Below are positions 5,855 to 20,615 of a DNA stretch of 59,191 nucleotides, piece by piece; position 1 is the stretch's first letter; each line of letters opens with the position of its first letter. Position numbers and translations under genes: made by a program. Location of the stretch: NCBI RefSeq assembly GCF_029624655.1, contig NZ_JARRSA010000024.1, forward strand, positions 1-59,191. The letters are read 5' to 3'. The stretch is from Roseicyclus salinarum. Lineage in GTDB: Bacteria; Pseudomonadota; Alphaproteobacteria; Rhodobacterales; Rhodobacteraceae. The notes beneath the pieces were generated by a model that saw only the letters and a program-made list of their open reading frames with translations, had not been told where the DNA came from and did no database searches.

Positions 5855-6550
5855 TCAGTCGGCAAGCCAGCGGGCGAGCGCCGCCGTCGTCTCCTCGGGC
5901 CGTTCGAGCGTGGGCATGTGGCCCGCGCCCTCCACCACCACGAGGCGCGAGCCGGGGACGAGCGCGTGCATCAGTTCGTGGCGCTCCACCGGGCAGAGCG
6001 CGTCGAGGGCGCCGCACAGGATCAGCGTCGGCACCCGCACCGCGCGCAGGGCGTCCTGCCGGTCGGGACGGTCGCGCAGCGCCAGCGATTGCCGGGCGAA
6101 GACCTCGGGGCCGAGATCGAGGGCCATCGCCATGCACACCTCCAGGATCTCGGCGCGGTGCGGGCCGTCGGCGAGGTAGTTCGGCTTCAGTTCCTCGCGC
6201 ATCACCCGCTCGAGCCCGCCTGCGCGCACCGCCGCGATCTGCGGGGCGCGGCGCGCCTTGACCTCCGGCAGTTCGGCGCGCGGGTTGGTGTCCAGCAGCG
6301 CAAGACGCTCGACACGATCGGGCGCCCGGGCCACGATCTCCATCGCGACGATGCCGCCCATGGAAAGGCCTGCAAGTGCAAAGCGTTGCGGGGCGTTGCT
6401 CAACACCGCTTCGGCCAGCCCGCCCATATCGGCGGCACCGGCGAGATCGCCGACGACCACTTCGCGTTCGTCCGACAGCGCCTTGATCTGGGGCGAGAAA
6501 AGCCTGCCGTCGCACATCATGCCCGGCAACAGGACAAGGGGCGGCGTCAT
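5855..6550 (-). CDS. Alpha/beta hydrolase
   Basis: 231 residues of the alpha/beta hydrolase fold. There is an oxyanion strand LVLLPGMMCDGR near the N-terminus, the nucleophile elbow LAGLSMGGIVAMEI (G-L-S-M-G-G, catalytic Ser about residue 65), an acid strand VPTLILCGALDALCP with the catalytic Asp, and the C-terminal EGAGHMPTLERPEE with the catalytic His. All triad residues are present, so it should be an active esterase or carbon-carbon-bond hydrolase. The start overlaps the MetE-like gene stop as ATGA, so it is the last gene of the minus-strand catabolic cluster. The substrate is unknown. Confidence 0.85.
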   Translation of the reverse strand: MTPPLVLLPGMMCDGRLFSPQIKALSDEREVVVGDLAGAADMGGLAEAVLSNAPQRFALAGLSMGGIVAMEIVARAPDRVERLALLDTNPRAELPEVKARRAPQIAAVRAGGLERVMREELKPNYLADGPHRAEILEVCMAMALDLGPEVFARQSLALRDRPDRQDALRAVRVPTLILCGALDALCPVERHELMHALVPGSRLVVVEGAGHMPTLERPEETTAALARWLAD

Positions 6551-7668
6551 CCGACCGCGCGCGCCCCTTCGCTCAGCGCGGCAAGCTTGGCGTAGGCGAT
6601 GGCGGGATCGACGGCGCCGAAGCCCGCGAAGGTCCCGAAACCGCAGTCGCTGCCCGCGATCACGCGCTCGGCGCCGACGATGTCGATGAACCGCTGAAGG
6701 CGCTGCGCGACGAGCTCGGGATGTTCGACGAAGTTGGTCGTCGTGTCGACGACGCCGGGCACAAGGATCTTGTCGTCGGGGATGTCGCGCTTGCGGTCGC
6801 GGAAGACCGTCCATTCATGGCCGTGACGGGGGTTCGACGTCTCGAACAGAACGTAGCGCGCCTTGGCCGACATCAGGGTGTCGAACATCCTGGCCATCGG
6901 GATGTCGCAGACATGCGGCCCCTCGTAGTTGCCCCAGCAGATGTGGATGCGCACGCGGTCCTCCGGCACGCCCGAAAGCGCGTGGTTCAGCGCCTCGACA
7001 TGGGAGGCCGCGACCTTCACGAACTCCTCGTCGGAGAGGTCCGCGAACAGCATGTGGCGCGACAGCGCGAGGTCGGGACAGTCGAGCTGAAGGTCGAGCC
7101 CGGCGGCCACGATGGTCTCGTATTCCTCCTTCATCGCGTCCGCGAGCGCGGCGAGATAGGCCTCGCGCGTGGGGTAGTGGGCGTTTTGCAGGAACAGGCT
7201 GATCACGCCGGGACTGGCCGCGTTCATGAAGCCGCGCCCGATGCCGTGGGCCTTCATCGCCACTTTCAGGTTCGCGATATCCTTCCCCAGTTCGCCCTGC
7301 CCCTTCGACTTCACCTCGCCGACGCACATCGGACGGGCGTATTTCGGCGTTCCGCCGGATTCCGCCAACCTTTTCAGGAAGCTGGGAAAGAGCTTCAGGT
7401 CGGCTGGCGCGTTCCTCGGGCTGTCGCCCCCGAAACCCGTGTAGCGATCCTTGACGTAGGTGGCGTAGGAAATTTTCGATGTTTCGCCATCAGAAACGAT
7501 ATCCACACCCGCGGCTTTCTGTTTCGCCACCGTCGCATCCACGGCCGTGGCCATGGCGGCGTCGAACGCCGCCGGGTCGAACGGTTCGCCACGCTCCCGG
7601 GCGAAGATGAAATCCACGACCTCCTGGCTGCGCGGAAGGCTTCCGACATGCGTGGTAGGAATGCTCAT
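6547..7668 (-). CDS. MetE C-terminal-like cobalamin-independent methyltransferase family protein
   Basis: 373 residues, matching only the zinc-binding C-terminal half of MetE (full MetE is about 750). The zinc ligands are visible: His242 and Cys244 (RIHICWGNY), Glu276 (VLFETSNPRHGHEW) and Cys342 (GSDCGFGTF). Entry motif THVGSLPRS is typical of stand-alone Meth_synt_2 proteins. Such proteins move methyl groups to or from thiols, or act on other zinc-bound substrates. Methionine synthesis is doubtful because the N-terminal folate-gripping half is missing and the gene sits in a catabolic cluster. It is followed with overlap by the alpha/beta hydrolase. Confidence 0.83.
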   Translation of the reverse strand: MSIPTTHVGSLPRSQEVVDFIFARERGEPFDPAAFDAAMATAVDATVAKQKAAGVDIVSDGETSKISYATYVKDRYTGFGGDSPRNAPADLKLFPSFLKRLAESGGTPKYARPMCVGEVKSKGQGELGKDIANLKVAMKAHGIGRGFMNAASPGVISLFLQNAHYPTREAYLAALADAMKEEYETIVAAGLDLQLDCPDLALSRHMLFADLSDEEFVKVAASHVEALNHALSGVPEDRVRIHICWGNYEGPHVCDIPMARMFDTLMSAKARYVLFETSNPRHGHEWTVFRDRKRDIPDDKILVPGVVDTTTNFVEHPELVAQRLQRFIDIVGAERVIAGSDCGFGTFAGFGAVDPAIAYAKLAALSEGARAVG

Positions 7669-7709
7669 GCCCGGTCCTCCTCGAGCGTTTCGAAATCGGG
7701 GCCCGCGCC

Positions 7710-8366
7710 TCAGCGCGCGCCGGCGGATGCAGCGGCGCCGGGGTCGAGTTCGGTCTGCACCGCGCAGGCGCCCGTGAAGTCGGATCCGTCGTGATAGAGG
7801 CCCGGAAAGGCCAGAACCCTGATGCCCGCCGCCGACGCCGCGCGCAGACCGTCGGGGTTGTCCTCGACGGCGAGCACATCCTCGGCCGCAATGCCGAGCG
7901 TCTCGAGCGCGCTCAGGTAGAGGTCCGGCGCGGGCTTGGGCCGGGCGTCCCAGGTGGCGTCCGTCACGAGGTCGAAGTCGCGCCGAGACAGCCGCGCGGC
8001 CGCGAGGATCGCGTCGACGTTGTCGGCCAGCGTGCCCGAGACGAAGGCCAGCCGCCCACCCGCCTTCCGCGTCTCGGCAATCGCCTCGATCACGCCGGGG
8101 CGGAGGGGCACGCCGGCATCGAGGCGCGCCTGGAACAGCGTGCTCTTGAGGCGGTGAAGCTCGACGGCGTCGACCGTCATGCCCTGCGCCTCGGCATAGT
8201 CCGCGATCCGCTGCTGCCCCCCGGAGCGGCGCAGCATCTTCGAATAGGCCTCGCGTGACCAGTTCCAGTCCAGTCCGACCTCGGCGAAGGCGTCGTTGAA
8301 GGCCTGCCGCTGAAGCTCGGACGTCTCGGCGAGCACGCCGATGGATCCAAGGAAGAGGTGCGTCAT
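7710..8366 (-). CDS. HAD-superfamily protein lacking catalytic aspartates (probable pseudo-phosphatase)
   Basis: 218 residues with the overall layout of beta-phosphoglucomutase/CbbY-like HAD proteins: cap region after motif I, motif II Ser110 (LAFVSGTLAD), motif III Lys144 (RPKPAPDLY) and motif IV Glu168-Asp169 (VEDNPDG). Motif I, normally D-x-D-G-x-L, reads G7-S8-I9-G10-V11-L12, so both the nucleophile Asp and the acid Asp are absent. The bases at 8331-8366 read cleanly, with no sign of frameshift. It may be a non-catalytic binding or regulatory protein, or use unusual chemistry. It lies between the bicupin and MetE-like genes of the catabolic island. Confidence 0.8.
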   Translation of the reverse strand: MTHLFLGSIGVLAETSELQRQAFNDAFAEVGLDWNWSREAYSKMLRRSGGQQRIADYAEAQGMTVDAVELHRLKSTLFQARLDAGVPLRPGVIEAIAETRKAGGRLAFVSGTLADNVDAILAAARLSRRDFDLVTDATWDARPKPAPDLYLSALETLGIAAEDVLAVEDNPDGLRAASAAGIRVLAFPGLYHDGSDFTGACAVQTELDPGAAASAGAR

Positions 8367-8393
8367 GGGTCGTGTCTCCAGTCTCGCGCGCCG

Positions 8394-8448
8394 CGGCGAG
8401 TTCCCCGCGGGTGGCGCCTGTCTCGGATGCGCGGAGGGCAACTCGCCG
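8394..8448. repeat. Long imperfect inverted repeat in intercistronic gap
   Basis: Perfect 9-base arms CGGCGAGTT (8394-8402) and AACTCGCCG (8440-8448) enclose a GC-rich interior that can extend the stem imperfectly. It fills most of the 97-base gap between the bicupin and HAD genes. It could act as an mRNA-stabilising or attenuating hairpin. No T-run follows on either strand, so a simple intrinsic terminator is unlikely. Confidence 0.6.
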
Positions 8449-8463
8449 TTCCGCGCGGTTCTA

Positions 8464-9426
8464 TCATGCCCAGGTCGCGCCGGCAGGATCGTCGGTGGCG
8501 ATGACGTGATAGAGCGCCGCCTCGCCGGTCATCGCGGGCACCGCGGCGTGGTCGAGCCCGCCGGGAACGCTCATCGTGTCGCCGGGGGCCAGAACGGTCG
8601 CGCCCCCCTCCCAGCTCACGCGCCAATGGCCGCGCACGGGCATCAGGACACTGGGGCGGTCGTGGGAATGCGGGGTCGCGCTCGCGCTGTCGCGGGTCAC
8701 GAAATCGACCTCGAAACCCGGCCTGTCGCGCAGGATGCCGGTCTCACCGATCACCCGGGCGGGCCTTTTCTCCGCCAGCGCCACCAGGTCCCAGTAGCGG
8801 GCGACGTAGTTCGGGACCACCTCCGCGGCGGTCGGTTCGGGGAAAGCCTCCAGCTCCTTCTCGCCAAGGACGGGCATCGGTCCCACCCCCTCGGGCAGGC
8901 TTTCGCCCTTCGCGGTGTCGTAGAGCCTGCCGTTCGCGCCCAGAACGAGGCCATGCGCCCGCGCGTCCTCGATCACCTGCGGCGCCCAGATGACGCCGCC
9001 GCCCGCGTCGTCGCCGCCGAGGATCGCCATGATCATCCCGTAATCGGTGCCGATGTTCTCGAAGCCGCGGAAGATGCCGGTGGGGATGTTGAAGATGTCG
9101 CCCTCCTCCAGCACGACCGACCCCGCGTCGCCGCGGCGCCCCCAGAAGAAGCGCCAGCGCCCCGACAGGACGAAGAAGACCTCGGCCGTGCGGTGGGAAT
9201 GGAGCGAGTTGCGGCACTTCGGCGGCTGGCCCGCGGCGCCGATGTTGAAGCCGTGCGGGATGGTGATGTGAACGTGCTGGTCCGCGGCCTCCGAGACGCC
9301 GCCGCCGATGATCGTGAAGTTCTCCTTGCGGTCGGAGCCCGGTGTGTGGGCGTCGATGAAGGCGGTGCGGCAGGGCTGAAGCTCGCCGTAGCGGACGATG
9401 CGGGCTGCCATCTCTTGGGCGTTCAT
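8464..9426 (-). CDS. Two-domain cupin (bicupin) protein
   Basis: 320 residues containing two cupin barrels. The first (about 55-140) has H76-S-H78 and E82 (LHSHRTAEVFFVLSGRW) and G-D-I-F-N-I-P-x-G. The second (about 235-315) has H253-S-H255 (TPHSHDRPSV) and APGDTMSVPGG. Both can bind a metal, as in gentisate-dioxygenase-like or sugar-binding bicupins. No transport signal is seen, so it is cytoplasmic. The gene sits between the SRPBCC gene (16 bases upstream) and the HAD pseudo-enzyme in the same minus-strand array. Enzymatic dioxygenase or isomerase activity is inference only. Confidence 0.82.
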   Translation of the reverse strand: MNAQEMAARIVRYGELQPCRTAFIDAHTPGSDRKENFTIIGGGVSEAADQHVHITIPHGFNIGAAGQPPKCRNSLHSHRTAEVFFVLSGRWRFFWGRRGDAGSVVLEEGDIFNIPTGIFRGFENIGTDYGMIMAILGGDDAGGGVIWAPQVIEDARAHGLVLGANGRLYDTAKGESLPEGVGPMPVLGEKELEAFPEPTAAEVVPNYVARYWDLVALAEKRPARVIGETGILRDRPGFEVDFVTRDSASATPHSHDRPSVLMPVRGHWRVSWEGGATVLAPGDTMSVPGGLDHAAVPAMTGEAALYHVIATDDPAGATWA

Positions 9427-9442
9427 GGGGTATCCCCGGCTG

Positions 9443-9916
9443 TCATGGTTTCGGGTTGGTGATTGGGCCGTAGGCGTCGATATCGGCCTGGAAACGCTCG
9501 AGGATCCAACTCCAGCCGGCCTCCTGTGCGCGGGCGATGTCGCGGCCCGACAGGTCGCTTGCCTGCGCCACGGCCTCGATGCGGCTGCCGTCCTCGGTCG
9601 CGATGAACTCGACCACGAGGGCCGTCATCATGGTCACGACGCCGCCGAAGATGCCGACCATAGAACTGGCGAGCAGGCGGTTCTCGTCGACGCGCAGGTG
9701 GGTCTGGATCATGCGCCCGATCTCGCGGCCGTCCTGCATCACGCGCACCGTCTCGGTGCCGCCGGGACGGGTGTCGAAACCGTCGTAGACCATCCCCGTA
9801 TCGGGGCCCGCCTCCCAGCGCCGCCGGGTGACGGGGCTGGTCCAGTGCGCGAAGATGTCCTCGACGGGAAGCGCGAAGTCGCGGGCGGCGCGGATCGTGG
9901 CGACGGAGGTTCGCAT
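9443..9916 (-). CDS. SRPBCC/AHSA1-family protein
   Basis: 157 residues of the START/AHSA1 fold: ARDFALPVEDIFAHWTSP at the N-terminus, the W-E-A-G-P-x-x-G-M-V-Y-D strand, and a C-terminal long helix ending GWSWILERFQADI. These proteins form a deep hydrophobic cavity for small organic ligands and often act as cyclases or carriers. The start overlaps the SnoaL gene stop (ATGA), so the two are translated together, and the bicupin gene follows. Ligand and reaction are unknown. Confidence 0.82.
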   Translation of the reverse strand: MRTSVATIRAARDFALPVEDIFAHWTSPVTRRRWEAGPDTGMVYDGFDTRPGGTETVRVMQDGREIGRMIQTHLRVDENRLLASSMVGIFGGVVTMMTALVVEFIATEDGSRIEAVAQASDLSGRDIARAQEAGWSWILERFQADIDAYGPITNPKP

Positions 9917-10890
9917 CAGCGCGCGCCCTCCTGCAGGAGGATCTGCTTCCAGATCGCGGTCTCGTCGTAGAGCGTGCATTCCCGGCGCAGGCCCCATGGG
10001 CCGAACTCGGCATGGGTGATGCCCAGGACGTAGACCATCGCGCCCGTGGGCACGCCGAACGCGCCCCAGCCCTCATGACGGCCCCACAGGCTCCAGCGGA
10101 CGGCGGCGCGGGGCGGCATCATGTCGTCCTCGCGGCCGATGACATGGTGCAGCGTGAACTCGGCGTTCGGAAACGCCGCGCGCAGCCCCATCCAGAAGCG
10201 GTCGGCGGCCTCACGGCCATGCGCCGTCACGCCGCCGGGATAGTCGAGATGGCAGGCGCGGTCATACTCGTCGGCGATGGCGGAGAGATCGGCGGACATG
10301 ATCCGGCTCAGGATCTCGGACAGCCGCTCGCCCCATGCGCTGTCGTTTCCGGTGCCCGTGTAGGGGCCGGGAAGGTCGGTCTCGGGCGTGAGGGGCTTCA
10401 CGCAGCGCGCCGGGCCGCCTTCGCGCTCGATCAGGCCGGCGGCGTAGTCGCGCGGCTCGAGGCCCAGCTGGCGCACGATCGCGCCCTGGTCGCGGATCAG
10501 CCACTCGTCGTCGATGGTGTTCTCGCGCGCGTGGCAGTCGGCGAGGATCCGGTAGACCAGCTTCCGGCCGGTCGCGCGGCCGTAGACGCCGTCGCCCGCA
10601 TGGGTCGCCATCGACGTGATCCGGTGCGAGGACAGCATCCCCGTCTCGGGGTCGCCCGACCAGATCACGTCCTCGCCCAGAAGGACGCGGTCGGGAAATT
10701 CGTGCAGCGTGGCCATCGTGGCGCCGATCACGCCCCTGTTGCCGACGACGACCGAACCGGGGGTGCGCACGACGATGTCGGCCGAATAGTAGTCGTGCAG
10801 TGTGTGGATCCCGCGGTCTTCCCAGATCTCCTTGGTGATGCCGATGATGTAGTCGGGGAAATCGCGGAATTTCGCGTCGAAGCCCTTCAT
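9916..10890 (-). CDS. Two-domain SnoaL/NTF2-like protein
   Basis: 324 residues containing two SnoaL-like (NTF2 fold) halves. The first has IWEDRGIHTLHDYYSADIVVRTP and the second DLSAIADEYDRACHLDYPGG followed by FWMGLRAAFPNAEFTLHHVIG, a classic SnoaL strand-helix pattern. Such domains catalyse aldol-type ring closures, epoxide hydrolysis or isomerisation. It lacks the C-terminal E-N-W-V-x-x-D motif shared by the other three SnoaL proteins here, so it forms a separate branch. ATG 10890 overlaps the lacI stop (ATGA); ATG 10899 is an alternative. Confidence 0.8.
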   Translation of the reverse strand: MKGFDAKFRDFPDYIIGITKEIWEDRGIHTLHDYYSADIVVRTPGSVVVGNRGVIGATMATLHEFPDRVLLGEDVIWSGDPETGMLSSHRITSMATHAGDGVYGRATGRKLVYRILADCHARENTIDDEWLIRDQGAIVRQLGLEPRDYAAGLIEREGGPARCVKPLTPETDLPGPYTGTGNDSAWGERLSEILSRIMSADLSAIADEYDRACHLDYPGGVTAHGREAADRFWMGLRAAFPNAEFTLHHVIGREDDMMPPRAAVRWSLWGRHEGWGAFGVPTGAMVYVLGITHAEFGPWGLRRECTLYDETAIWKQILLQEGAR

Positions 10891-11906
10891 GTGTCCCATC
10901 CCTGAGGTATGCGCGCCGACCCCCGCAGGATCAGCTGCCCGTTCACCTCCACGCTGCGCGGGGGCGTCGTGGGGTCTTCGACAAGCCCGAGCAGAAGGTC
11001 AACCGTCTCGGCCACCATCCGGCCCGCCGGTTGACGCACGGTCGTCAGGTCGTAGGACGGCCAGGATGCCGCCGGAACGTCGTCGTAGCCCGCGACGGAC
11101 ACGTCCAGCGGGACGCGCAGGCCCAGCTCGAAACGCAGGGTGTCCATGACGGCGAGCGCCATGTGGTCGTTGGCCACGAAGAGGGCATCGGGCGGATCGT
11201 GCGCGAACATGCGGCGCGCCGCCGCGCGGGCCTCTTCCATGCGGAAGTTCCCGACCTCGCGGCAATGCAGGGACCGCCCGGCGGCCGCAAGCGCGCGCAT
11301 GAAGCCGAATTCGCGGTCGCGCTGGGTCGAGGCGCCCTCCCACCCGGCGATATAGCCGATCCGCTCGTGTCCGGCCGCAAGGAACATCTCGGCCACCTTC
11401 GCGCCGCCCGCGGTATTGTCGGAGGTGACGACGCTGTCGTCCTCTCCGTCCTGCGCGCGGTTGAACAGCACCAGCGGCACGCCCGCCGCGCGGCAGCGGG
11501 CCGACAGGTCCGAGGACAGCGCAACGGAAGCGGCGATGATCCCGTCCACCTGGTAGTCGAGCAGCTCCTCCACCACGGTGTCGACGTTGCCGGCCGTCTG
11601 CGATGCCATGAACACGAGCACATGGTAGCCGCGTTCCTGCAGCGCGTTCGACAGCCTTTCCAGGACGTCGGGATAGAACTGGTTGTCGAGGTATGCGACC
11701 ACGAGGCCGATCATCCGGCTCTTGCCAGAAACCATCGCGCGCGCGAGCACGTTCGGCCGGTAGCCCAGCTCGGCCGCCGCGCTGCGCACCTTCTCCACGG
11801 TCTTGGCCGAGGCCGAGGCGCCGGGCGTGAAGACGCGGCTCACGGCGGACTGGCTGACGCCGGCCAGCGCCGCGACCTCGGCGGATGTGACCTTGGTCGT
11901 GGTCAT
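10887..11906 (-). CDS. LacI-family transcriptional regulator
   Basis: 339 residues. The N-terminal helix-turn-helix reads TSAEVAALAGVSQSAVSRVF, the hinge region LGYRPNVLARAMVSGKS leads into the sugar-binding core beginning MIGLVVAYLDNQFYPDVLERL, and the end carries PSYDLTTVRQPAGRM. This is a full-length LacI/GalR repressor sensing a small, probably sugar-like molecule. It is embedded inside the array, 40 bases downstream of a SnoaL gene, so it likely regulates its own cluster. The matching operator candidate is at 19514-19535 in front of the transporter genes. Confidence 0.95.
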   Translation of the reverse strand: MTTTKVTSAEVAALAGVSQSAVSRVFTPGASASAKTVEKVRSAAAELGYRPNVLARAMVSGKSRMIGLVVAYLDNQFYPDVLERLSNALQERGYHVLVFMASQTAGNVDTVVEELLDYQVDGIIAASVALSSDLSARCRAAGVPLVLFNRAQDGEDDSVVTSDNTAGGAKVAEMFLAAGHERIGYIAGWEGASTQRDREFGFMRALAAAGRSLHCREVGNFRMEEARAAARRMFAHDPPDALFVANDHMALAVMDTLRFELGLRVPLDVSVAGYDDVPAASWPSYDLTTVRQPAGRMVAETVDLLLGLVEDPTTPPRSVEVNGQLILRGSARIPQGWDT

Positions 11907-11946: not shown

Positions 11947-12999
11947 TCATGCCGCCCCCACGGGAAAGGGAATTTCGCCGGGCACGCGCGCCTTGTTGAA
12001 TTCCCGCAGGCGGGCAAACACGTCCACGCCGAGCTGGCGGTAGACGTCAAGAAGGTCGACCATCACCCAGTTCTCGCGGATGAGCCCGTCCTTCACCCGC
12101 CAGAAGTCGAGGGAACACATCGTGATCCGCCTGCCCGAGGGCGCGATCCCCATCCAGCCGTCATGGGTGACCGTCTGGATCATGTTGGGCCAGCCCGTGA
12201 CGGCGGCGTAATCGCCGTCGCCGAAGAAGTGGTAGGTGATCTCGTCCCAGTACTGCCCCCGGTCGGGCATCGCGTTCAGGAACGGGATCTGGTGCCAGTT
12301 GCGGAAGCCCGCGATGCCGCGCCCCGTCCCGATCCCCGCGGGCCCGTACCAGTTGGCGTTCCGGTGCCAGAACCGCGGCATCTCCATCACCTCGGGGCCG
12401 CCTTGCGACGGGTGCCGCTTCATGTGGTCGAGCATCGCCACGATGTGATCGCAACTGGCTTGCGCGCGGCCCGCGTCCCAGGGCCCCGGCACGATCCCGT
12501 CGCAGGTCGCCGGGCCCGGAATGCAGAACTCCAGGCCGAGCGACGGCGCCATGGGCCATGCCTTGGCCTGCATCATCACCTCGGGAATGTCCCAGATCGC
12601 CTGCATCTCGACGACCCGTCCCGCCTCGAAGCGGTAGAACTCGTGGAACCGCATGTGGGAAAGATGCCCCGTCGGCGGAATGTCGAACCACGGACGGACG
12701 AAGGTTCCGACGTAGTGCCCGCCACAGCCGACCCAGTCGCCGCCATGTTCGGTCCGCCCGCCCATGACGATCCAGTCACGTCTCTCGAGGTCGGGCATGG
12801 CTGCGGCGAGCGGCGCGTAGCAGACGTCGAAGAGCGCCTCGGGACCGGTCATCGTGCCGAGGGGATGGCACATCGCGACGGAGGCCTCGGGGTCGATCAC
12901 ATCCCTCATGGCGGCCCGGACGCGGGACGGCTCGAACTCGTGCATGGCCTCGCGCAGGGGCGCGAGCGCCGCCTTGTTCGCCGTGTGAACGTCGCTCAT
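11947..12999 (-). CDS. Two-domain SnoaL/NTF2-like protein
   Basis: 350 residues with two SnoaL-like halves. The N-terminal half carries HMRFHEFYRFEAGRVVEMQAIWDIPEV and the C-terminal half ITYHFFGDGDYAAVTGW, then a closing DFWRVKDGLIRENWVMVD block. The terminal block is shared in pattern (D-N/E-N-W-V-x-x-D-x-x-x-V-x-x-Q-L-G-x-D-V-F) with the genes at 12996-13541 and 19611-20615. This indicates duplication and divergence of one family within the island. The start overlaps the preceding stop as ATGA. It probably acts on intermediates of the imported compound; no reaction can be named. Confidence 0.82.
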   Translation of the reverse strand: MSDVHTANKAALAPLREAMHEFEPSRVRAAMRDVIDPEASVAMCHPLGTMTGPEALFDVCYAPLAAAMPDLERRDWIVMGGRTEHGGDWVGCGGHYVGTFVRPWFDIPPTGHLSHMRFHEFYRFEAGRVVEMQAIWDIPEVMMQAKAWPMAPSLGLEFCIPGPATCDGIVPGPWDAGRAQASCDHIVAMLDHMKRHPSQGGPEVMEMPRFWHRNANWYGPAGIGTGRGIAGFRNWHQIPFLNAMPDRGQYWDEITYHFFGDGDYAAVTGWPNMIQTVTHDGWMGIAPSGRRITMCSLDFWRVKDGLIRENWVMVDLLDVYRQLGVDVFARLREFNKARVPGEIPFPVGAA

Positions 13000-13541: not shown

Positions 13542-15028
13542 GCCGCGTCCTGCGCGATGAAATCCGCGCCGCGCCAGCCGATCATCATCGAGGGCGCGTT
13601 CGTGTTGGCCGAAGTGAGCATCGGCATGACGCTTGCGTCGGCGGCCCAGAGCCCCCTCGCCCCCTTCACCGACAGCCTTGCCCCGACCGGTCCCTCGGCG
13701 CCCATGGAAAGCGTGCCGGCCGGATGGTAGGCCGTGCCCGCATGGTTGCGGATATGCGCCCTGAGCGCCTCGCCCGTGACGCTCTCGCCGGGAAAGACCT
13801 CGGGCGCGCGACGGGGGCCGAAATCGGCGCGCCGCAGAAGCGTCCGAAGCCGCTCCACCCCTGCCGCCATCGTCTCGAGATCCCCCTCCTCGCGGAACAG
13901 GCCCAGATCGATGGCTGGCGGCGCGGCGGGATCGCGCGAGGTCAGGCGCAGCGACCCGCGCGAGGCCGGGCGGCACAGGCAGACGTCCGCGAAATACCCC
14001 GCCTTGCGCTGGTAGCGCGGCCCCTCGTGGGCGAGGAAGAAGGGGATGAAATGCGTCTGCACGTCGGGAGGGGCATCCTCGCCGCGCGCGTTGAAGAAGG
14101 CGCCGGCCTCGCAGGTCGGCGAGGCCAGCGGGCCGCGCCGCAGGAGCCCGTAGGCGACGGGCGCCACGGCCCAGCGCGGCCATTGCGCGCGCTCCAGCCC
14201 GTAGCCCGACCCCGCCGCCTCGAAATGGAGGCCGACGCCCGGATGGTCGTGCAGGTTCCGCCCGACCGCAGGCGCATCGATCCGCGAATCGATCCCGAGG
14301 GCGGCAAGGTCGCCTCGGGGCCCCACGCCCGAGCGCATCAGGATGGCGGGCGATCCGATGGAGCCCGCGCAGAGAACGACCCCCTTGGCCGCGCGCACCT
14401 CGGTGCCGTCCGCGAGGGCGACGCCCGACGCCCTGTCGCCAGACCACAGGAGGCGGTCGACCTCGGCGCCGGTGCGCACCTCGACGTCTGGGCGGGCGCG
14501 CAGGTAGGCCCGCGCCGCCGACCTGCGCCGGTGCCGGTCCATGTTGTGCGCGAAAAGGCCCGCGCTTTCGCGGTCCGGGTGCGGGTGTGGGTCGTCGAAG
14601 ATGGAGGCGAGCCCCCTGGACAGCGGGTGCGCCTCGCGCAGGCGCACGGGCCGCAGTTCCGCCTCGACGGCCTCGAAGGCCGGGGCCACCTCCGCCGCCG
14701 ACCATCCCGGCACGTCCCATGCGTCGAAGTCGCGGTCGCTGCCACGGAACCAGACCATCGAGTTGATCGACCCCGAGCCCCCGACCATGCGCCCGCGCGG
14801 CACTGCGATCTCGCGCCCGCCTGCCGCCTCCTGCGGCACGGTGCGATAGCGCCAATCGCGCGGTCCGCCCAGCAGCCAGACGAGACCGAAGGGCATCGAG
14901 ACGAGCGGATGCGTCTCGGGCGGCCCGGCCTCGAGCACGAGGACCGACCCCGCCCCGCGCCGCGCCAGTTCCGCCGCCATGACACAGCCCGCAGATCCCG
15001 CGCCGATGACAATGAAATCGCGCATCAC
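13538..15028 (-). CDS. GMC-family FAD-dependent oxidoreductase (choline dehydrogenase-like)
   Basis: 496 residues. The FAD-binding motif DFIVIGAGSAGCVMAAELARRG is at the N-terminus with E at the end of the second strand (VLEAGPPE). GMC signatures follow: GRMVGGSGSINSMVWFRG and GSIGSPAILMRSGVGP. The active-site His region is HNAGTAYHPAGTLSMG, with the second residue in TSANTNAPSMMIG (Asn, as in choline-dehydrogenase types). It should oxidise an alcohol or sugar hydroxyl. It follows the ABC permease genes by about 50 bases, consistent with the first oxidation of the imported substrate. Confidence 0.92.
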   Translation of the reverse strand: MMRDFIVIGAGSAGCVMAAELARRGAGSVLVLEAGPPETHPLVSMPFGLVWLLGGPRDWRYRTVPQEAAGGREIAVPRGRMVGGSGSINSMVWFRGSDRDFDAWDVPGWSAAEVAPAFEAVEAELRPVRLREAHPLSRGLASIFDDPHPHPDRESAGLFAHNMDRHRRRSAARAYLRARPDVEVRTGAEVDRLLWSGDRASGVALADGTEVRAAKGVVLCAGSIGSPAILMRSGVGPRGDLAALGIDSRIDAPAVGRNLHDHPGVGLHFEAAGSGYGLERAQWPRWAVAPVAYGLLRRGPLASPTCEAGAFFNARGEDAPPDVQTHFIPFFLAHEGPRYQRKAGYFADVCLCRPASRGSLRLTSRDPAAPPAIDLGLFREEGDLETMAAGVERLRTLLRRADFGPRRAPEVFPGESVTGEALRAHIRNHAGTAYHPAGTLSMGAEGPVGARLSVKGARGLWAADASVMPMLTSANTNAPSMMIGWRGADFIAQDAA

Positions 15029-15077: not shown

Positions 15078-15959
15078 TCATCCCTTCACCGCGCCGGCGG
15101 TCAGGCCGCTCACGATCTGACGCTGGAAGAACAGGACCAGCACGAAGAGCGGTGCGGTCGCGGACACGACGGCGGCGACCGCGAACATGACATTGCCGGC
15201 CTCCTGCGTCGTGCCGAGGAAGCTGGCGATCGCGGGGATCATCGTCTCGTTCTGCTCCGACAGGAGCATCGAGGTCACGGCGAAGTCGTTGTAGGCGAGA
15301 AGGAAGCTGAAAAGGCCGGTGGTGATGACGCCGGGCCACATCACCGGGATGATGACGTGCCGGAACGCCTGGAACCGGGTGCAGCCGTCCACCATCGCGC
15401 TTTCGTCGAGGTCCTTGGGGATGTTCAGGAAGAACGAATGCAGCATCCACAGCGTGAACGGCTGGTTGATCGCCACAAGGACGATGATCGTCGTGGGCAG
15501 GATGCCCCAGATGTTCCACTCGAAGAAGGGCAGCAGGTAGCCCGAGACCAGCGTGATATGCGGCATCGCGCGGAACACCAGCGCCAGCATCAGGAGCCAG
15601 AAGGCGTATCGGAAGCCCGACCGCGCCAGCGCGTAGCCGCCGAGCGTGCCGAAGGTGAGCGAGATCACCACGGTGAAGAAGACGACGATCATCGTGTTCA
15701 GCACGGGGCGCCAGAATTCCTCCTGCACCCATGCGCCGTAGTAGCCCTGCAGCGTGAAGGCGCTGCCCGTCTCGCGGATCGTGTTCACGCCGTAGAGCGC
15801 ATTGCGCCAGTCGGCCCGAGAGAAGAAGTCCGACTGGACCTTGAAGCTGCCCCAGAGCGTCCAGAGGAACGGGAAGGACGCGATGACGAGCCAGAGGATC
15901 ACCAGCGCGACCGAAAGGACGGTCAGGAGCGTGATGCGCGATTGCGCCTTTGTGGCCAT
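15078..15959 (-). CDS. Carbohydrate ABC transporter permease, MalG type
   Basis: 293 residues with six membrane helices, from LLTVLSVALVILWLVIASFPF near the N-terminus to the last hydrophobic stretch around APLFVLVLFFQ. The EAA loop that docks on the ATPase is DLDESAMVDGCTRFQAFRHVIIP, carrying E-S-A-x-x-D-G. This is the MalG-type partner of the adjacent MalF-type permease, from the CUT1 family for oligosaccharides, polyols or glycosides. The gap to the upstream permease is only 15 bases. Substrate not determinable. Confidence 0.93.
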   Translation of the reverse strand: MATKAQSRITLLTVLSVALVILWLVIASFPFLWTLWGSFKVQSDFFSRADWRNALYGVNTIRETGSAFTLQGYYGAWVQEEFWRPVLNTMIVVFFTVVISLTFGTLGGYALARSGFRYAFWLLMLALVFRAMPHITLVSGYLLPFFEWNIWGILPTTIIVLVAINQPFTLWMLHSFFLNIPKDLDESAMVDGCTRFQAFRHVIIPVMWPGVITTGLFSFLLAYNDFAVTSMLLSEQNETMIPAIASFLGTTQEAGNVMFAVAAVVSATAPLFVLVLFFQRQIVSGLTAGAVKG

Positions 15960-15974
15960 GATGCTCGCCCTCCC

Positions 15975-17006
15975 TCAGTGCGCCTTGCGGTTGAAATCGC
16001 GCCAGGTCCGGATCAGCACCGGCGCAAGCAGGATCGCCACCCCGACGATGGTCAGCATCGAGGTCGCCCCCGCCGAACCGTAGAGCGGGTTTCCCGCCTC
16101 GCGCAGGTCGTTGAAGATGATCCAGCTCAGCGAGGTCGCGTAGGCCTGCGCCTGGAAGCCCACGACGGGCTCGAAGACACGGAAATTGTCCATCAGCTGG
16201 ATCAGCGTGATGAAGATCACCAGCGGCATCAGGTGCGGCACGACGACATGGCGCATCCGCTGCCATTTCGAGGCGCCGTCGATCATCGCGGCCTCCATCG
16301 TGTCCTGCGGCACCGTCTGCAGGCCCGCGTAGAAGACGATGAAGCTGAACGGGATCGACGACCAGATGCCGTAGACGATGAGCATGAGCCACGTCAGCCC
16401 GGCGGACGCGCGCAGGCTCAGGCTGGGGTCGTTCATGATGTTCTGGATCGTGGCGCCGATGATGCCCTCGGCGTCCACCATCCACAGCAGGATCAGCGAC
16501 CCGACCAGCGGCGTGACCATCATCGGCAGCAGCGACACGAAGATCGTCGGGCCCTTGAACATGCGCGGCAAGTTGTTGACGCCGACCGCGATGGCGAGGC
16601 CCAGAAGCAGGACGAAGGGCGTGACCACGAAGGTGTAGGTCAACGTGAAGGCGAGAGCCCGGTAGAACGGCAGGCCCAGCACGCGGTCGAGGAAGGCGCC
16701 CACGGTGTCGGTGGTGGCCCAGGCCTCGCCGATCTGCTCGAACGCGAGATGCGCGCGGTTGGTATAGGTCTTGAGACCGTTGAACCGGCCAAGCGGCGCC
16801 TCCTCGCGCAGGGCGCGGGTGGCCTCCTGGTCCACGGCGGTGGACTCGGTGCAGCCGAAGGGGCCGCAGCTTTCGGTGACGACGATCACCTGCTCGTGCT
16901 GGATGTGCAGCGACTGGATGAAGACCGAGACGATGGGCAGCGCGATGAACAGCGTCATCGCGGTCAGCGTCGGAAGGATGAACCAGAAGAAGGTCTTGTG
17001 TTTCAT
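15975..17006 (-). CDS. Carbohydrate ABC transporter permease, MalF type
   Basis: 343 residues. The first helix FFWFILPTLTAMTLFIALPIV is followed by a periplasmic segment of roughly 80 residues holding two cysteines (CGPFGC), then a further group of helices. The EAA loop is DTMEAAMIDGASKWQRMRHVVVPHL. This is a MalF-like CUT1 permease with a longer periplasmic loop than average. It pairs with the downstream MalG-like gene; the substrate-binding protein gene lies upstream, separated by a strong hairpin. Confidence 0.93.
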   Translation of the reverse strand: MKHKTFFWFILPTLTAMTLFIALPIVSVFIQSLHIQHEQVIVVTESCGPFGCTESTAVDQEATRALREEAPLGRFNGLKTYTNRAHLAFEQIGEAWATTDTVGAFLDRVLGLPFYRALAFTLTYTFVVTPFVLLLGLAIAVGVNNLPRMFKGPTIFVSLLPMMVTPLVGSLILLWMVDAEGIIGATIQNIMNDPSLSLRASAGLTWLMLIVYGIWSSIPFSFIVFYAGLQTVPQDTMEAAMIDGASKWQRMRHVVVPHLMPLVIFITLIQLMDNFRVFEPVVGFQAQAYATSLSWIIFNDLREAGNPLYGSAGATSMLTIVGVAILLAPVLIRTWRDFNRKAH

Positions 17007-17066: not shown

Positions 17067-17079
17067 GCCCGTGTCCGCC

Positions 17080-18333
17080 TTACTGCAGGAAGCCCGCTTC
17101 GCGCGCGGCGTCGCGATATGCGGCCTCCACGTCGGCAAGCGCCTGCTCGGCGCTTTCGTTGCCCTGCATGAAGTCAGCCAGTTCGGCGCCGAGCGCGTTG
17201 TGCAGGAGGCCGATCTGGGGGACCATCGGATAGGGCTTCGCCCCGCCCCGCGCGGTCGCCGACACGCCCGCGGCCGCCGGGCCGGGGGTGAAGCCGTCCA
17301 GAAGCCACACGGCGTCGTCGTTGTGGGCTGCCACCATCTCGGGCGTCAGCGCGCTGGCGAGCGCCGCGAAGGTCGCCTCGGCCTCGCTGTCGGGGACGTT
17401 GGCGGCGATGGTGAAGCCGTCCCACCAGAGCGTCGCGGCGGGAATGCCGATGCCCTCGACCACGGGGGCCGCGGCCAGCACGGTGTTGCCCGTGACCTCA
17501 GGCGAGGACCCCTCGTCGTCGAGGATGACCGAACCGCGCGAGCCCCACATCATGCCGAGCGCGGCCTGGCCGGCCTCCCACGTCGCCTGGGTCTCGTTCG
17601 AGGCCTGGCTGAGGTGGTCGGGATGGGCGTATTCCGCCAGCGCCGCCAGCGTCTCGAGCGTGGCCACGCCCGCCTCGCTGTTGACCAAGGGATTGGCGGT
17701 GCCCGGCTCGAAGAATTCGCCGCCATGCGCGAGGAACACGAGGTTGAACGTCTCCGCGAGGTTCCAGCCGACCTGCATGTTCATGACCACCGGATGCTCC
17801 ATGATGCCCGCGGCGCGAATGGCCTCGGCGGCGGCGAGAAGCTCGTCGAAGGTCGCCGGGACGCCCTCGACGCCGGCCTCCTCCAGGATGTCGGTCCTGG
17901 CGAAGAGGTGCTGGGAGTTGGCCATGAAGGCCACGGCCATCACGTCTCCGTTGATGGTGATCAGCAGGTTGGGGTCGATGTTCGCGCCATAGGCCTCGAC
18001 CAGATCGTTGAGCGGACGCACCAGGCCGTCGTTCATCAGCTGCGTGAGCGTCGCGTTGGCCACGATGACGGAGGTGTATTCGGCCGGATCGGGCGTGAGC
18101 GCGGCGTTCATGATGTCCCGCGCCTCGGTCGTGTGGTTGCGCTGGAACTCGGAGGCGGCGGCGCCGCAGTTTGCCTCGGCGGTGCCCGCGACGGCGTGGA
18201 TCGCGGGGAAGTCGCTGGCGAGGATGCGGATCGACTGCCCCTCGGGCCCGCAGATCGCGTGCCCGTCGGCGTAGGCTGCCGAAGCCATCAGGCCGACAAG
18301 GCTTCCCGCTGCGGCGAGTGTCTTGAATGTCAT
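17080..18333 (-). CDS. ABC transporter solute-binding protein (CUT1 sugar type)
   Basis: 417 residues starting with a Sec signal peptide (MTFKTLAAAGSLVGLMASAA, cleavage near A-Y-A). The mature part fits family 1 extracellular solute-binding proteins: RILASDFPAIHAV, hinge DELLAAAEAIRAAG, and AALGMMWGSRGSVILDDEG near the C-lobe. Two early cysteines (AICGPEG, ANCGAA) may form a disulfide. Start 18333 has a GGGAG ribosome site. It sits between the ATPase gene (upstream) and the two permeases (downstream), giving a complete importer. The ligand is likely a sugar or sugar-like compound. Confidence 0.92.
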   Translation of the reverse strand: MTFKTLAAAGSLVGLMASAAYADGHAICGPEGQSIRILASDFPAIHAVAGTAEANCGAAASEFQRNHTTEARDIMNAALTPDPAEYTSVIVANATLTQLMNDGLVRPLNDLVEAYGANIDPNLLITINGDVMAVAFMANSQHLFARTDILEEAGVEGVPATFDELLAAAEAIRAAGIMEHPVVMNMQVGWNLAETFNLVFLAHGGEFFEPGTANPLVNSEAGVATLETLAALAEYAHPDHLSQASNETQATWEAGQAALGMMWGSRGSVILDDEGSSPEVTGNTVLAAAPVVEGIGIPAATLWWDGFTIAANVPDSEAEATFAALASALTPEMVAAHNDDAVWLLDGFTPGPAAAGVSATARGGAKPYPMVPQIGLLHNALGAELADFMQGNESAEQALADVEAAYRDAAREAGFLQ

Positions 18334-18397
18334 GGTCTTCTCCCTGTTTCTTTTTCGGGTGGATGCGCCTTGCAGGCAGGCATCCCGTCCTTGTGGT

Positions 18398-18414
18398 CCG
18401 GGCCTCCGGCCCGG
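18398..18414. repeat. Short GC-rich hairpin upstream of binding-protein gene
   Basis: CCGGGCC (18398-18404) and GGCCCGG (18408-18414) with a 3-base loop, in the 97-base gap between the ATPase stop and the binding-protein start. It may mark an mRNA processing or attenuation point; no T-run is present. Confidence 0.5.
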
Positions 18415-18430
18415 GCTTTGCTTGCGGGGC

Positions 18431-19480
18431 TCAGGCCCCCATTCGCTCACCGTTCTTGCCGTCGAACAGGTGGCAGATCCCTGCGGGCACGGCGATCGAC
18501 ACGCGGTCGTCGATCTCGGCCCGGAACGTCTTGTCGGCCCGGACGCTGACCAGCGTGCCGCCGATGCGCACCGTGACCATCGTCGCGTCGCCCAGAAGCT
18601 CGAGCGTGTAGATCGGCGCGTTGATCTGGCCGCCCGCCTCGACCACCTGCGCGTCCTCGGCCCTGTAGCCCAGCGTGGCGGGCCCGTCCGGCGCGGAGAG
18701 GCCGGTGACCTCGACGTTCGGCGCGGTGAACACGCCGTCCCTGACGGAGCCGTCGATCAGGTTCATCGCGGGGTTGCCGATGAAGCTTGCGACGAAGGTG
18801 TTCGCCGGGCGGTCGTAGATCTCGGTCGGGCTGCCGACCTGCTGCACGACGCCCTTCTTCATCACCACGACCCTGTCGGCCAGCGTCATCGCCTCGATCT
18901 GGTCGTGGGTGACGTAGATCGTGGTGACGGCAAGCTCGTGGCTGAGGTTCTTGATCTGCGCGCGGGTCGAGACGCGCAGCTTGGCGTCGAGGTTCGACAG
19001 CGGCTCGTCCATCAGGAACACGTTGGGCTCGCGCACGATCGCGCGCGCCAGCGCCACGCGCTGCCGCTGGCCGCCCGACAGCTCAGCGGGCTTGCGGTGC
19101 AGGAACTCGTCGAGCTCCACCATCGCGCTGGCGCGGCGCACCTTCTCGTCGTGGGTCGCGGGATCGATGCCCCGCACCTTCAGCGGAAAGCGGATGTTCT
19201 CGTAGACGTTCATGTTGGGGTAGAGCGCGTAGGACTGGAAAACCATGGCCACGTCGCGGTCCTTGGGCTCCAGGTGCGTCACGTCGCGGCCGTCGATCAG
19301 GATCTCGCCGTCGGTGGGATCCTCCAGCCCGGCGATCATGCGCATCGTGGTGGTCTTGCCGCAGCCCGACGGGCCCAGCAGCACGAGGAACTCGCGGTCG
19401 GCGATGGTGAGGTTGAAATCGTCCACGCCGACGAAACCGCCCCAACGCTTGCAAACGCCGTTCAGCTTGATTTCCGCCAT
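18431..19480 (-). CDS. Sugar ABC transporter ATP-binding protein (UgpC/MsmK type)
   Basis: 349 residues. Walker A is GPSGCGKTT, followed by the Q-loop (FQSYALYPNMNVYENI), signature LSGGQRQRVALARA, Walker B VFLMDEPLSNLD and the H-loop VTHDQ. After about residue 235 comes the OB-like regulatory domain (GYRAEDAQVV) typical of MalK/UgpC. This is the ATPase of the CUT1 importer. Start 19480 has a strong AGGGGGG ribosome site. It is the first gene transcribed leftward from the divergent promoter that carries the LacI-type operator. Confidence 0.95.
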   Translation of the reverse strand: MAEIKLNGVCKRWGGFVGVDDFNLTIADREFLVLLGPSGCGKTTTMRMIAGLEDPTDGEILIDGRDVTHLEPKDRDVAMVFQSYALYPNMNVYENIRFPLKVRGIDPATHDEKVRRASAMVELDEFLHRKPAELSGGQRQRVALARAIVREPNVFLMDEPLSNLDAKLRVSTRAQIKNLSHELAVTTIYVTHDQIEAMTLADRVVVMKKGVVQQVGSPTEIYDRPANTFVASFIGNPAMNLIDGSVRDGVFTAPNVEVTGLSAPDGPATLGYRAEDAQVVEAGGQINAPIYTLELLGDATMVTVRIGGTLVSVRADKTFRAEIDDRVSIAVPAGICHLFDGKNGERMGA

Positions 19481-19513
19481 GGCCGTCCCCCCTGAAGGTC
19501 TCTGGGATGCGCA

Positions 19514-19535
19514 TTTTTGCATACGCTTGCAAAAA
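19514..19535. promoter_or_regulatory. LacI-type operator in divergent promoter region
   Basis: Palindrome TTTTTGCA-N6-TGCAAAAA centred on a CpG (19524-19525), the usual geometry of LacI/GalR-family operators. It lies 34 bases before the ATPase gene start and 76 bases before the plus-strand SnoaL gene, in the divergent region 19481-19610. The LacI protein at 10887-11906 is the natural candidate to bind it. Confidence 0.72.
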
Positions 19536-19610
19536 GCCTAGACAGGAATTCCGCAAGCTGGCAACAGTTTTCTTCGGAGCACGGCCCCCGCGGCGGGAGA
19601 GCGGAACGAC

Positions 19611-20615
19611 ATGACCGAATTTCAGGCGGAAAAGGCGCTGGTCCGCGCCCACCACGCGGCGCTGGCGGCCGCGACACCGCGCACCGCGGCAGCGGCGCTG
19701 GCCGAACACACCGCCCCGGACTGGCAATGGCGCGGCATCTGCCCCTTCGACGAGCGCCGCGGCGCGGACGAGGTCGCGGACGTTTTCTGGACACCGCTCC
19801 TGACGGCGATGACGGCGCTTCAGCGGCGCGAGGACATATTCTTCGCGGGCCGGAACGAGATCGACGGTTTCCGGGGAACTTGGGTCGTTTCGATGGGCCA
19901 CCTTGCGGGACTGTTCGATGCGTCATGGCTCGGCATCCGGCCCACGCGGAAGCTTGCGATGCTGCGCTATGCCGAGTTCCACCGCGTCGAGGACGGCCGC
20001 ATCGCCGAGACGGCGCAGTTCGCCGACATCCCCCACCTGATGACGCAGGCGGGCCAGTCCCCCTTCGGCCCCGCCACCGCGCAGCACATGGTGCAGCCGG
20101 GGCCGCGCACGCATGACGGCCTTCTTCTGGGCCCGCAGCCGCGGACCGAGGGCGAGGCGACGCTGGCCGCGATCGACGCCATGATCTCGGATCTCGGGAC
20201 CTGGCAGTCGGGGCTGCCGCTCGAGGACGAGCTTCGCCGCACCTGGGCGGAGGACATGCTGTGGTGGGGTCCCGAGGGGATCGGGGCGACCTACACGATC
20301 CCGCGCTACGCCGCGCAGCATTCCGGCCCGTTCCGCGCCGCCTTCACCGACCGCTCGCGCACGGGCCACGTCGCGCGGCTGGCCGAGGGGCACTACGGCG
20401 GCTTCTTCGGCTGGCCGAACTTCACCGCGCGCCACGCGGGCGGCTTCATGGGCCTGCCCGCCGGCGACCGCCCGGCGGAGTTCCGCGTCGTGGACATCTA
20501 CCGCCGCGAGGGCGATAGGCTGGCCGAGAACTGGGTCTTCATCGACATGCTGCACGTCATGCGCAGCCAGGGCGTCGACGTGCTGGGCCGGATGCGGGCG
20601 ATCAGCGGCGCCTGA
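19611..20615 (+). CDS. Two-domain SnoaL/NTF2-like protein, divergent from the ABC operon
   Basis: 334 residues with two NTF2-like halves: the first has DWQWRGICPFDERRGADEVADVFW, RKLAMLRYAEFHRVEDGRIAETAQF and ADIPHLM; the second ends AEFRVVDIYRREGDRLAENWVFIDMLH and the shared V-M-R-S-Q-G-V-D-V-L tail. It is a paralogue of the genes at 11947 and 12996. It is transcribed away from the ABC ATPase and shares the operator region, so it probably belongs to the same regulon despite lying on the other strand. Its 3' end overlaps the convergent permease gene by 14 bases. Confidence 0.8.
   Translation: MTEFQAEKALVRAHHAALAAATPRTAAAALAEHTAPDWQWRGICPFDERRGADEVADVFWTPLLTAMTALQRREDIFFAGRNEIDGFRGTWVVSMGHLAGLFDASWLGIRPTRKLAMLRYAEFHRVEDGRIAETAQFADIPHLMTQAGQSPFGPATAQHMVQPGPRTHDGLLLGPQPRTEGEATLAAIDAMISDLGTWQSGLPLEDELRRTWAEDMLWWGPEGIGATYTIPRYAAQHSGPFRAAFTDRSRTGHVARLAEGHYGGFFGWPNFTARHAGGFMGLPAGDRPAEFRVVDIYRREGDRLAENWVFIDMLHVMRSQGVDVLGRMRAISGA

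Follow-up and report, generated by a model that had tools for sequence, protein, structure and literature searches.

A SnoaL-rich gene cluster of Roseicyclus salinarum and its relatives is a candidate regulon for the breakdown of mycosporine-like amino acids

Introduction

Which compound is broken down by the products of the gene cluster at positions 5855-20615 of contig NZ_JARRSA010000024.1 of Roseicyclus salinarum? The stretch of DNA analyzed here, referred to as the window, is 59,191 nucleotides long and belongs, as contig 16, to a genome of 3.95 Mb. The cluster is compact, with fifteen genes, 14 of them on the minus strand and sno1 alone, divergently, on the plus strand. Three of its four SnoaL genes encode double-domain proteins (Sno1, Sno3 and Sno4) and one a single-domain protein (Sno2), which gives seven SnoaL domains. 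A first-pass annotation listed a CUT1 importer, a GMC oxidoreductase, four SnoaL proteins, a LacI regulator, and SRPBCC, bicupin, HAD, MetE-like and alpha/beta hydrolase proteins, all of which are present. It took them for a catabolic island with an unusual enzyme set and suggested a methylated or cyclic sugar-like compound, such as a glycoside or a cyclitol, as the substrate.

Mycosporine-like amino acids (MAAs) screen out sunlight and occur widely, in phytoplankton, corals, seaweeds and cyanobacteria. An MAA is built on a cyclohexenone or imine ring. It has an O-methyl group, a tertiary carbon that bears a hydroxyl and a CH2OH group, and glycine; a second amino acid is frequent, such as serine in shinorine and threonine in porphyra-334. 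Given this structure, each function of the cluster would have a job. Sequence comparison leads us to favor, with modest confidence, the view that the products of a LacI-controlled regulon break down MAAs (shinorine, porphyra-334, mycosporine-glycine and their kin) or a very close class of compound.

Results and Discussion

Distribution and core genes of the cluster

Relatives of Sno3, the MetE-like protein and the bicupin were sought in 198 genomes of the family (E≤1e-3 for Sno3, paralogs included; E≤1e-60 for the MetE-like protein; E≤1e-40 for the bicupin). Each is present in 81 genomes and all three in 73. Pairwise co-occurrence gives Fisher p values of 1e-44 to 2.1e-37, so the sharing of genomes is not due to chance. 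Because Sno3 relatives occur in 81 of the 198 genomes, the idea of a local island was dropped; the same gene set is widespread in the family. A search of the phylum added few lineages (22 of 398 genomes were positive, among them the window's own and 15 others of the same family), and relatives extend to Gammaproteobacteria, Chloroflexi, Halobacillus and haloarchaea. Loci from named genomes, the best 80 of 575 relatives, include Salinigranum, Haloferax, Halobacillus, Colwellia, Halomonas, Vibrio, Roseateles, Sphingobium, Spirochaetia, Trueperaceae and many Chloroflexi metagenome-assembled genomes (MAGs). Plasmids of Ruegeria, Octadecabacter, Marinovum, Paracoccus, Vibrio and the haloarchaeon Halobellus carry versions of the cluster.

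Gene order was compared in 49 loci (40 family-genome stretches, eight plasmid loci and the window). The usual order is Sno1 / ATPase-SBP-permease-permease-Sno2-HisD-Sno3-SDR-LacI-Sno4-bicupin-MetE-like-hydrolase-RraA, where SBP is the solute-binding protein and SDR a short-chain dehydrogenase/reductase. Labeling by open reading frames (ORFs) loses genes that overlap long spurious ORFs, such as sno3 of locus L216, and key counts were therefore redone by tblastn. HisD was found in 36 of the 49 loci, the bicupin in 35, LacI in 35, SDR in 33, the MetE-like protein in 28 and RraA in 20. The unusual composition noted at first is thus real in its parts and partly accessory, as GMC is found in six of the 49 loci, SRPBCC in two and HAD in the window only. 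By tblastn all three are absent from the 80 named loci and from the same-genus stretches L215 and L216; an SRPBCC gene was also seen in L061, and in L210 it precedes MetE. These three proteins were dropped as guides to the substrate.

Ruegeria conchae and Marinovum algicola are among the roseobacters with the usual arrangement, type A. A shorter arrangement, type B, consists of the importer, Sno3 and often Sno4, and was found in ten loci (seven family, three named), seven of which have a divergent LysR gene by the ATPase gene. Type B probably feeds type A, because markers of type A are present in nine of the ten genomes (six have MetE-like and cupin genes, three a close HisD) and the tenth, G164, has an operator-bearing importer/Sno1/amidohydrolase cluster, L205.

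Several features of individual loci were recorded. Sno3 appears to be broken in Ensifer adhaerens (L026, 12001-13038; in-frame stop) and in Phaeobacter inhibens DOK1-1 (L073, 12001-13043; a two-piece match with no annotated gene). SBP56-type genes, of the methanethiol oxidase type, adjoin SnoaL clusters in Marinovum algicola (L028, 19548-20945), where a DmdA-annotated gene is also close by, and in Phaeobacter piscinae (L071, 12789-14186). Six Chloroflexi MAG loci (L091, L095, L097, L113, L115 and L131) share a recurring set of several SnoaL genes with u3, which is amino-acid-racemase-like (named by eye), and u9, a SolA-like oxidase; no importer or MetE-like label was given in these stretches. 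A GH1 beta-glucosidase-like gene, scoring below the curated cut-off, lies within the Sphingobium algorifonticola cluster (L128, 5444-6904), and a glycosylated substrate might fit it.

A shared operator

The divergent promoter between the Sno and ATPase genes contains an 18-base palindrome, TTTGCATACGTATGCAAA (centre CG), which 26 of the 33 promoters of this kind carry when one mismatch is allowed. These promoters have 39 sites in 9,941 positions, vs nine in the other 664,828 positions of the loci. Among the seven promoters that lack it, five belong to loci with a site elsewhere, and four of those five had regions shortened to 35-108 bases, probably due to gene starts called too long. No operator was found in L026 and L029. 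The window site has no mismatch and is the only match at three or fewer mismatches within the window; at that tolerance 15 of 100 shuffled sequences matched.

The rest of the R. salinarum genome has one further place at two or fewer mismatches (none with the reversed pattern). It precedes an operon of HisD (75% identical to the Ruegeria one), SDR (62%) and LacI (58%). HisD and SDR, which the window's cluster lacks, are therefore encoded at a second operator-marked locus of the same genome. The MetE-like genes of genomes G126 and G001 are preceded by the operator at a distance of about 0.1 kb, and a site stands before the cupin gene of G001 as well. Since sites mark the promoters here, the HisD locus, and the MetE-like genes of G126 and G001, co-regulation of the cluster with scattered genes is supported at the sequence level, and the LacI-controlled unit proposed at first gains the same kind of support from the 26 promoters, the window's included.

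A distinct perfect palindrome, TTTGCAACCGGTTGCAAA, recurs in family genomes, with two copies about 4.3-4.4 kb apart in, for example, G086:C1, G105:C21, G171:C1 and G049:C1; judged by eye, it probably marks another LacI regulon. A scan of the 198 genomes with the exact operator pattern matched 54 genomes; this second palindrome was mixed in, and the count was not used.

Genes for methyl transfer, oxidation, aldol cleavage and amino acid breakdown

Relatives of the MetE-like protein keep the zinc ligands H-x-C...C (at least 97% in 27 rows, invariant in nine). In some loci corrinoid methyltransferase genes stand in its place. A Chloroflexi MAG locus, L137, encodes pterin-binding, URO-D-type and corrinoid proteins and has no MetE-like match by tblastn. 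URO-D-type genes are found in four of the 80 named loci (L077, L112, L132 and L137), all four without a MetE-like match, and corrinoid-domain matches in five, of which that of L119 resembles ordinary MetH. In G064, which has double SnoaL genes and is absent from the MetE-positive family genomes, an operator with one mismatch directly precedes the likely start of a gene for a corrinoid protein, which has a LacI gene as its neighbor; the NCBIfam scores of this protein are under cut-off. The profiles matched by the corrinoid protein of L209 include those of N-methyl systems (MtgC, MtbC), with scores under the cut-offs. Replacement of the MetE-like gene by corrinoid methyltransferase genes hints at methyl removal, and together with the conserved zinc site it supports, as far as sequences can, the methyl transfer that the first-pass annotation had considered.

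Two aldolases alternate. Among the 80 named loci tblastn found RraA in 17 and HpaI/GarL-like proteins in 13, both only in L135 (15 and 14 by the first labeling). RraA keeps the RD motif in 20 rows and weakly matches 4-carboxy-4-hydroxy-2-oxoadipate (CHA) aldolase models (E 5e-7), and the HpaI-like protein matches GarL/HpaI models, in both cases below curated cut-offs. This alternation hints at a pyruvate aldolase step. HisD was found in 35 of the 80 loci (tblastn), with GMC, AldA or Ldh-type genes at some loci. Uptake genes vary as well: nine named loci have a TonB-receptor group, eight a solute:sodium symporter (SSS) group and five a major facilitator superfamily (MFS) group, the names being given by reading and from annotated kin in L074.

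Genes of amino acid metabolism occur in a minority of loci. L-serine ammonia-lyase is present in six of the 80 named loci (tblastn), with a score of 686 bits vs a cut-off of 345 in L093. Threonine ammonia-lyase adjoins the cupin gene in L080 (619 vs 496), and a SolA-type oxidase is found in L102 (its group in seven of the 80 loci). Both sarcosine oxidase and PurU are encoded in L020, according to its annotation, and in L083, according to BLAST labels and reading. The comparison points to an amino-acid-bearing methylated cyclitol as the substrate, because serine and threonine ammonia-lyases, SolA-type and sarcosine oxidases, and RraA and HpaI aldolases accompany the cluster at some loci.

SnoaL proteins and a serine module in Vibrio

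Sno1, Sno2, Sno3 and Sno4 all score above the Pfam cut-off for SnoaL. The structure model of Sno3 (predicted local distance difference test score, pLDDT, 92.2) has two domains of the NTF2 fold, and its best fold matches are MonBI/MonBII, Lsd19 and IdmH.

A small module in Vibrio has the parts LacI-porin-double SnoaL-MFS / SSS symporter-L-serine ammonia-lyase (L218, L219, L221 and, in Vibrio europaeus, L074). The first three belong to genomes of one genus, whose DNA is an 80% match to that of V. europaeus. HisD, MetE-like, cupin and aldolase genes gave no match in these stretches. A search of 227 genomes of the genus found the SnoaL protein in 67 (E≤1e-60), and in one genome its rows are identical to those of a V. 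pelagius plasmid. It is 48% identical to Sno1 of the window and 31% to Sno3, has no meaningful match to Sno4, and forms one clade with Sno1 in a quick tree of 120 rows (Shimodaira-Hasegawa-like approximate likelihood ratio test 98). Twenty of 69 places were compared, hand-picked for spread. In 12 of them about 3.3 kb, with the SSS and MFS genes, separate the ammonia-lyase gene from the SnoaL gene; of the other eight, five are fuller clusters, one has SSS and MFS genes without the ammonia-lyase, and two SnoaL genes are isolated. In L241 the serine module is joined to hydrolase, cupin, SDR, HisD, HpaI and LacI genes. The simplest reading is that the Vibrio SnoaL protein frees L-serine from an imported conjugate. 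According to a suggestion of Dunlap & Shick (1998) that is reported in a review (PMC3083659), Vibrio harveyi removes the hydroxyamino acids from shinorine and porphyra-334 by hydrolysis.

The bicupin

In the N-terminal half of the bicupin H76, H78 and E82 are invariant in 37 close relatives (64-82% identical to the window's). A fourth histidine is a usual part of the cupin metal-binding set, and an arginine stands where it is expected. The model (pLDDT 82) is nearest to the quercetin dioxygenase YxaG.

Proposed route

From the gene content, co-occurrence, shared operator and gene swaps documented above, we infer the substrate and every reaction of the following route. The CUT1 importer, judging by its family, would take up the compound. 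Sno1-type SnoaL proteins may then hydrolyze the imine or enamine C-N bond to release serine or threonine, as the Vibrio module suggests, with the NTF2 cavity activating water as in epoxide hydrolases of the same fold; the other SnoaL proteins could act on other substituents, such as glycine. The MetE-like zinc enzyme would shift the O-methyl group to a thiol, a role suggested by its zinc site and by the corrinoid replacements, and HisD, encoded with SDR at the second operator locus, would oxidize -CH2OH to -COOH. In the weakest and most speculative step, the bicupin and the alpha/beta hydrolase, one or the other, might open the 1,2,3-oxygenated ring. The final split, of a 4-hydroxy-2-oxo acid, would fall to a pyruvate aldolase, for which other genomes have RraA or HpaI. 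On paper, C1-C2 cleavage of demethylated, oxidized 4-deoxygadusol would give 4-carboxy-4-hydroxy-2-oxoadipate, which is the substrate of CHA aldolase and which an RraA-type aldolase would split into pyruvate and oxaloacetate.

In its fullest form the proposal would make the double-domain SnoaL proteins a new enzyme class, MAA C-N hydrolases. It would also make the regulon a complete route from MAAs to pyruvate and oxaloacetate, with 5-carboxy-4-deoxygadusol and 4-carboxy-4-hydroxy-2-oxoadipate as intermediates. This route would be spread over bacteria and haloarchaea and have a side-branch in Vibrio able to take serine alone. This full version is tentative and, on balance, we would not expect all of it to hold. 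Both it and the better supported MAA-type substrate are graded in this way because most loci have no amino acid gene, RraA was not found in the window's genome, and MetE-like relatives occur outside such clusters.

Alternative explanations

A number of observations weigh against MAA catabolism. By tblastn serine ammonia-lyase is missing from 74 of the 80 named-locus stretches and from all 49 compared loci, and the ammonia-lyase is missing from the eight Vibrio loci without the common layout. In Vibrio, serine itself could be what the SSS protein carries, and the SnoaL substrate could be another serine conjugate. One Vibrio genome, G446, pairs the small module with a fuller cluster elsewhere (L220; HisD, HpaI, LacI, cupin, Sno3 and Sno4 matches), where operator-like sites occur at 1-2 mismatches. 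In the R. salinarum genome, where the search found no RraA, the nearest HpaI-like gene encodes a protein of 43% identity, and the 19 kb stretch compared here has no operator near it. The MetE-like protein scores at best 94 bits vs the NCBIfam methionine synthase cut-off of 406 and is below every cut-off; its relatives are also found outside such clusters on plasmids of Sphingobium, Dietzia, Halomicrobium and Pantoea. The C-terminal histidines of the bicupin are not conserved, and its fold matches include decarboxylases and storage proteins. G064 is absent from the cupin-positive family genomes, and the type-B genome G164 from both the MetE and cupin lists. Sarcosine oxidase and PurU (L020, L083) also fit glycine betaine metabolism, GlxA-type regulators nearby likewise belong to betaine metabolism, and a lactonase-like amidohydrolase near some clusters fits ordinary sugar-acid pathways.

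One rival substrate has no amino acid and is a methylated cyclitol or sugar, for example an O-methyl inositol; SnoaL proteins would act on it as dehydratases or isomerases, and a lactonase and aldolase would finish a sugar acid. The CUT1 importer, LacI, an SDR that scores among sugar-type SDR models, the fuconolactonase-like amidohydrolase, the GarL/HpaI-like aldolase, and the creatininase- and fucose-isomerase-like genes that L137 also holds are all in keeping with such a substrate. We nevertheless consider it rather unlikely, as it leaves unexplained the L-serine ammonia-lyase that accompanies SnoaL in Vibrio and in six of the 80 other loci, the threonine ammonia-lyase of L080 and the SolA-type oxidase of L102. 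The substrate class first guessed fares accordingly: a cyclic sugar-like compound is still the best class, and a plain glycoside or O-methyl cyclitol leaves the amino acid and aldolase links unexplained. Another conjugate with an amino acid or an N-methyl group (the head group of a betaine lipid, an Amadori compound, or a different serine or glycine conjugate) would account for the SolA-type oxidase of L102 and its group, for the sarcosine oxidase and PurU that L020 and L083 encode within or next to the cluster, for a GcvT-type gene near the Halobellus cluster, and for the L209 corrinoid protein with its below-cut-off scores among N-methyl systems. It too is unlikely; a head group based on glycerol would not need a pyruvate aldolase or a bicupin, and no Amadori-type deglycase was recognized by eye, no dedicated search having been made. 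SnoaL proteins are best known as polyketide cyclases, as the Pfam name reflects, which would suggest a polyketide-like biosynthetic cluster. This was rejected as highly improbable, since a Pfam scan of the cluster proteins revealed no ketosynthase or other synthase domain, and an importer, LacI and, at other loci, aldolases are found instead. MAA catabolism is thus the reading that we retain.

Organization of the window cluster

The features of the cluster are listed in Table 1. ATGA overlaps, which the first-pass annotation described as many, were found at four junctions (GMC/Sno2, Sno2/Sno3, LacI/Sno4 and MetE/alpha/beta hydrolase), and Sno4/SRPBCC overlap as TGATG. Its term pseudo-enzyme for the HAD protein is fair, because GSIG replaces the usual HAD motif I, DxDG, and both catalytic aspartates are absent.

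Table 1. Features of the SnoaL-rich cluster of R. salinarum in window coordinates
Feature	Position	Strand	Basis and remarks
Sno1, double-domain SnoaL	19611..20615	+	Pfam SnoaL, two stretches; predicted serine/threonine release
LacI-type operator TTTGCATACGCTTGCAAA	19516..19533	strandless	between divergent Sno1 and ATPase genes
UgpC/MalK-type importer ATPase	18431..19480	-	Pfam ABC_tran
Extracellular solute-binding protein SBP_bac_1	17080..18333	-	Pfam
CUT1-type permease 1	15975..17006	-	Pfam BPD_transp_1
CUT1-type permease 2	15078..15959	-	Pfam BPD_transp_1
GMC oxidoreductase, accessory	13538..15028	-	Pfam GMC_oxred_N/C
Sno2, single-domain SnoaL	12996..13541	-	Pfam on containing ORF
Sno3, double-domain SnoaL	11947..12999	-	Pfam and structure model
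LacI-family regulator	10887..11906	-	Pfam LacI and Peripla_BP_3
Sno4, double-domain SnoaL, separate subfamily	9916..10890	-	Pfam and tree
AHSA1-type SRPBCC protein, accessory	9443..9916	-	Pfam
Bicupin, predicted ring-cleaving or isomerizing metal enzyme	8464..9426	-	Pfam, alignment, model
HAD-fold protein without usual catalytic Asp pair	7710..8366	-	Pfam HAD_2 and sequence
MetE C-terminal-like candidate zinc methyltransferase	6547..7668	-	Pfam Meth_synt_2; HxC...C site present
Alpha/beta hydrolase	5855..6550	-	Pfam Abhydrolase_6

All four CUT1 components (ATPase, binding protein and two permeases) are recognized by Pfam. Searches of solved structures by sequence gave only distant matches for the SnoaL, MetE-like, cupin and binding proteins; those of the binding protein are sugar binders, including the sulfoquinovosylglycerol-binding SmoF. 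The GMC oxidoreductase scores under the NCBIfam choline dehydrogenase cut-offs. There are no iol names among the Pfam matches of the window's cluster proteins. A CUT2-type (ribose-like) importer and an FGGY carbohydrate kinase adjoin the cluster at 20602-25587, and the window search at three or fewer mismatches found no regulon operator there.

Relation to known systems

Each part belongs to a family already known, and the genes are arranged as in a sugar operon; the substrate, the role of SnoaL and the regulon appear to be undescribed. Lsd19 and MonBI/MonBII, which are double-domain polyether epoxide hydrolases, SnoaL2 and IdmH share the fold of the Sno3 model. Chains of Lsd19 and MonB align over nearly its full length, yet superpose poorly (11-14% identity, query template modeling (TM) score about 0.3, root-mean-square deviation 15-18 A), and IdmH is 22-25% identical over one domain (TM 0.75-0.78 on the target). 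Unlike SnoaL enzymes of polyketide assembly, those of the window are set among genes of import and breakdown. The MetE-like protein has the barrel family (Meth_synt_2) and HxC...C zinc site of core methionine synthases and epoxyalkane:coenzyme M transferases. It is about 26% identical to matches in Mycolicibacterium NBB4 and Nocardioides JS614, which are epoxide-pathway enzymes, and, unlike methionine synthases, sits in a catabolic regulon.

Like HpsN of 2,3-dihydroxypropane-1-sulfonate degradation, a HisD-like catabolic dehydrogenase, the cluster HisD lies outside histidine synthesis and is accompanied by SDR. It forms a separate group, 75-94% identical to the Ruegeria one in the 49 compared loci and 59-93% in the named loci, vs 36-47% for other HisD-like proteins in three named genomes. 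RraA resembles 4-hydroxy-4-methyl-2-oxoglutarate (HMG)/CHA aldolase of the RraA family in its RD motif and weak profile matches, and the HpaI-like protein resembles HpaI/GarL in profile matches; all the cluster versions score below curated cut-offs.

The hydrolysis of shinorine and porphyra-334 suggested in PMC3083659 agrees with the prediction from the Vibrio module in its organism group and in its products, a hydroxyamino acid, mycosporine-glycine and 4-deoxygadusol. The available part of that paper names no gene or enzyme. The available text of PMC10130141, on Ruegeria pomeroyi transporters, mentions neither SnoaL, ester cyclase, mycosporine, methionine synthase nor unknown substrate. Among the literature matches listed, as judged by titles and abstract starts and with subscription papers mostly outside, none ties SnoaL to such a cluster or describes genes of MAA breakdown.

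Significance

If the MAA reading is right, a widespread regulon would gain a function, and a single enzyme assay could test a step of the marine carbon and nitrogen cycles that is still open. The SnoaL family would then have a role in breakdown beside that in polyketide cyclization.

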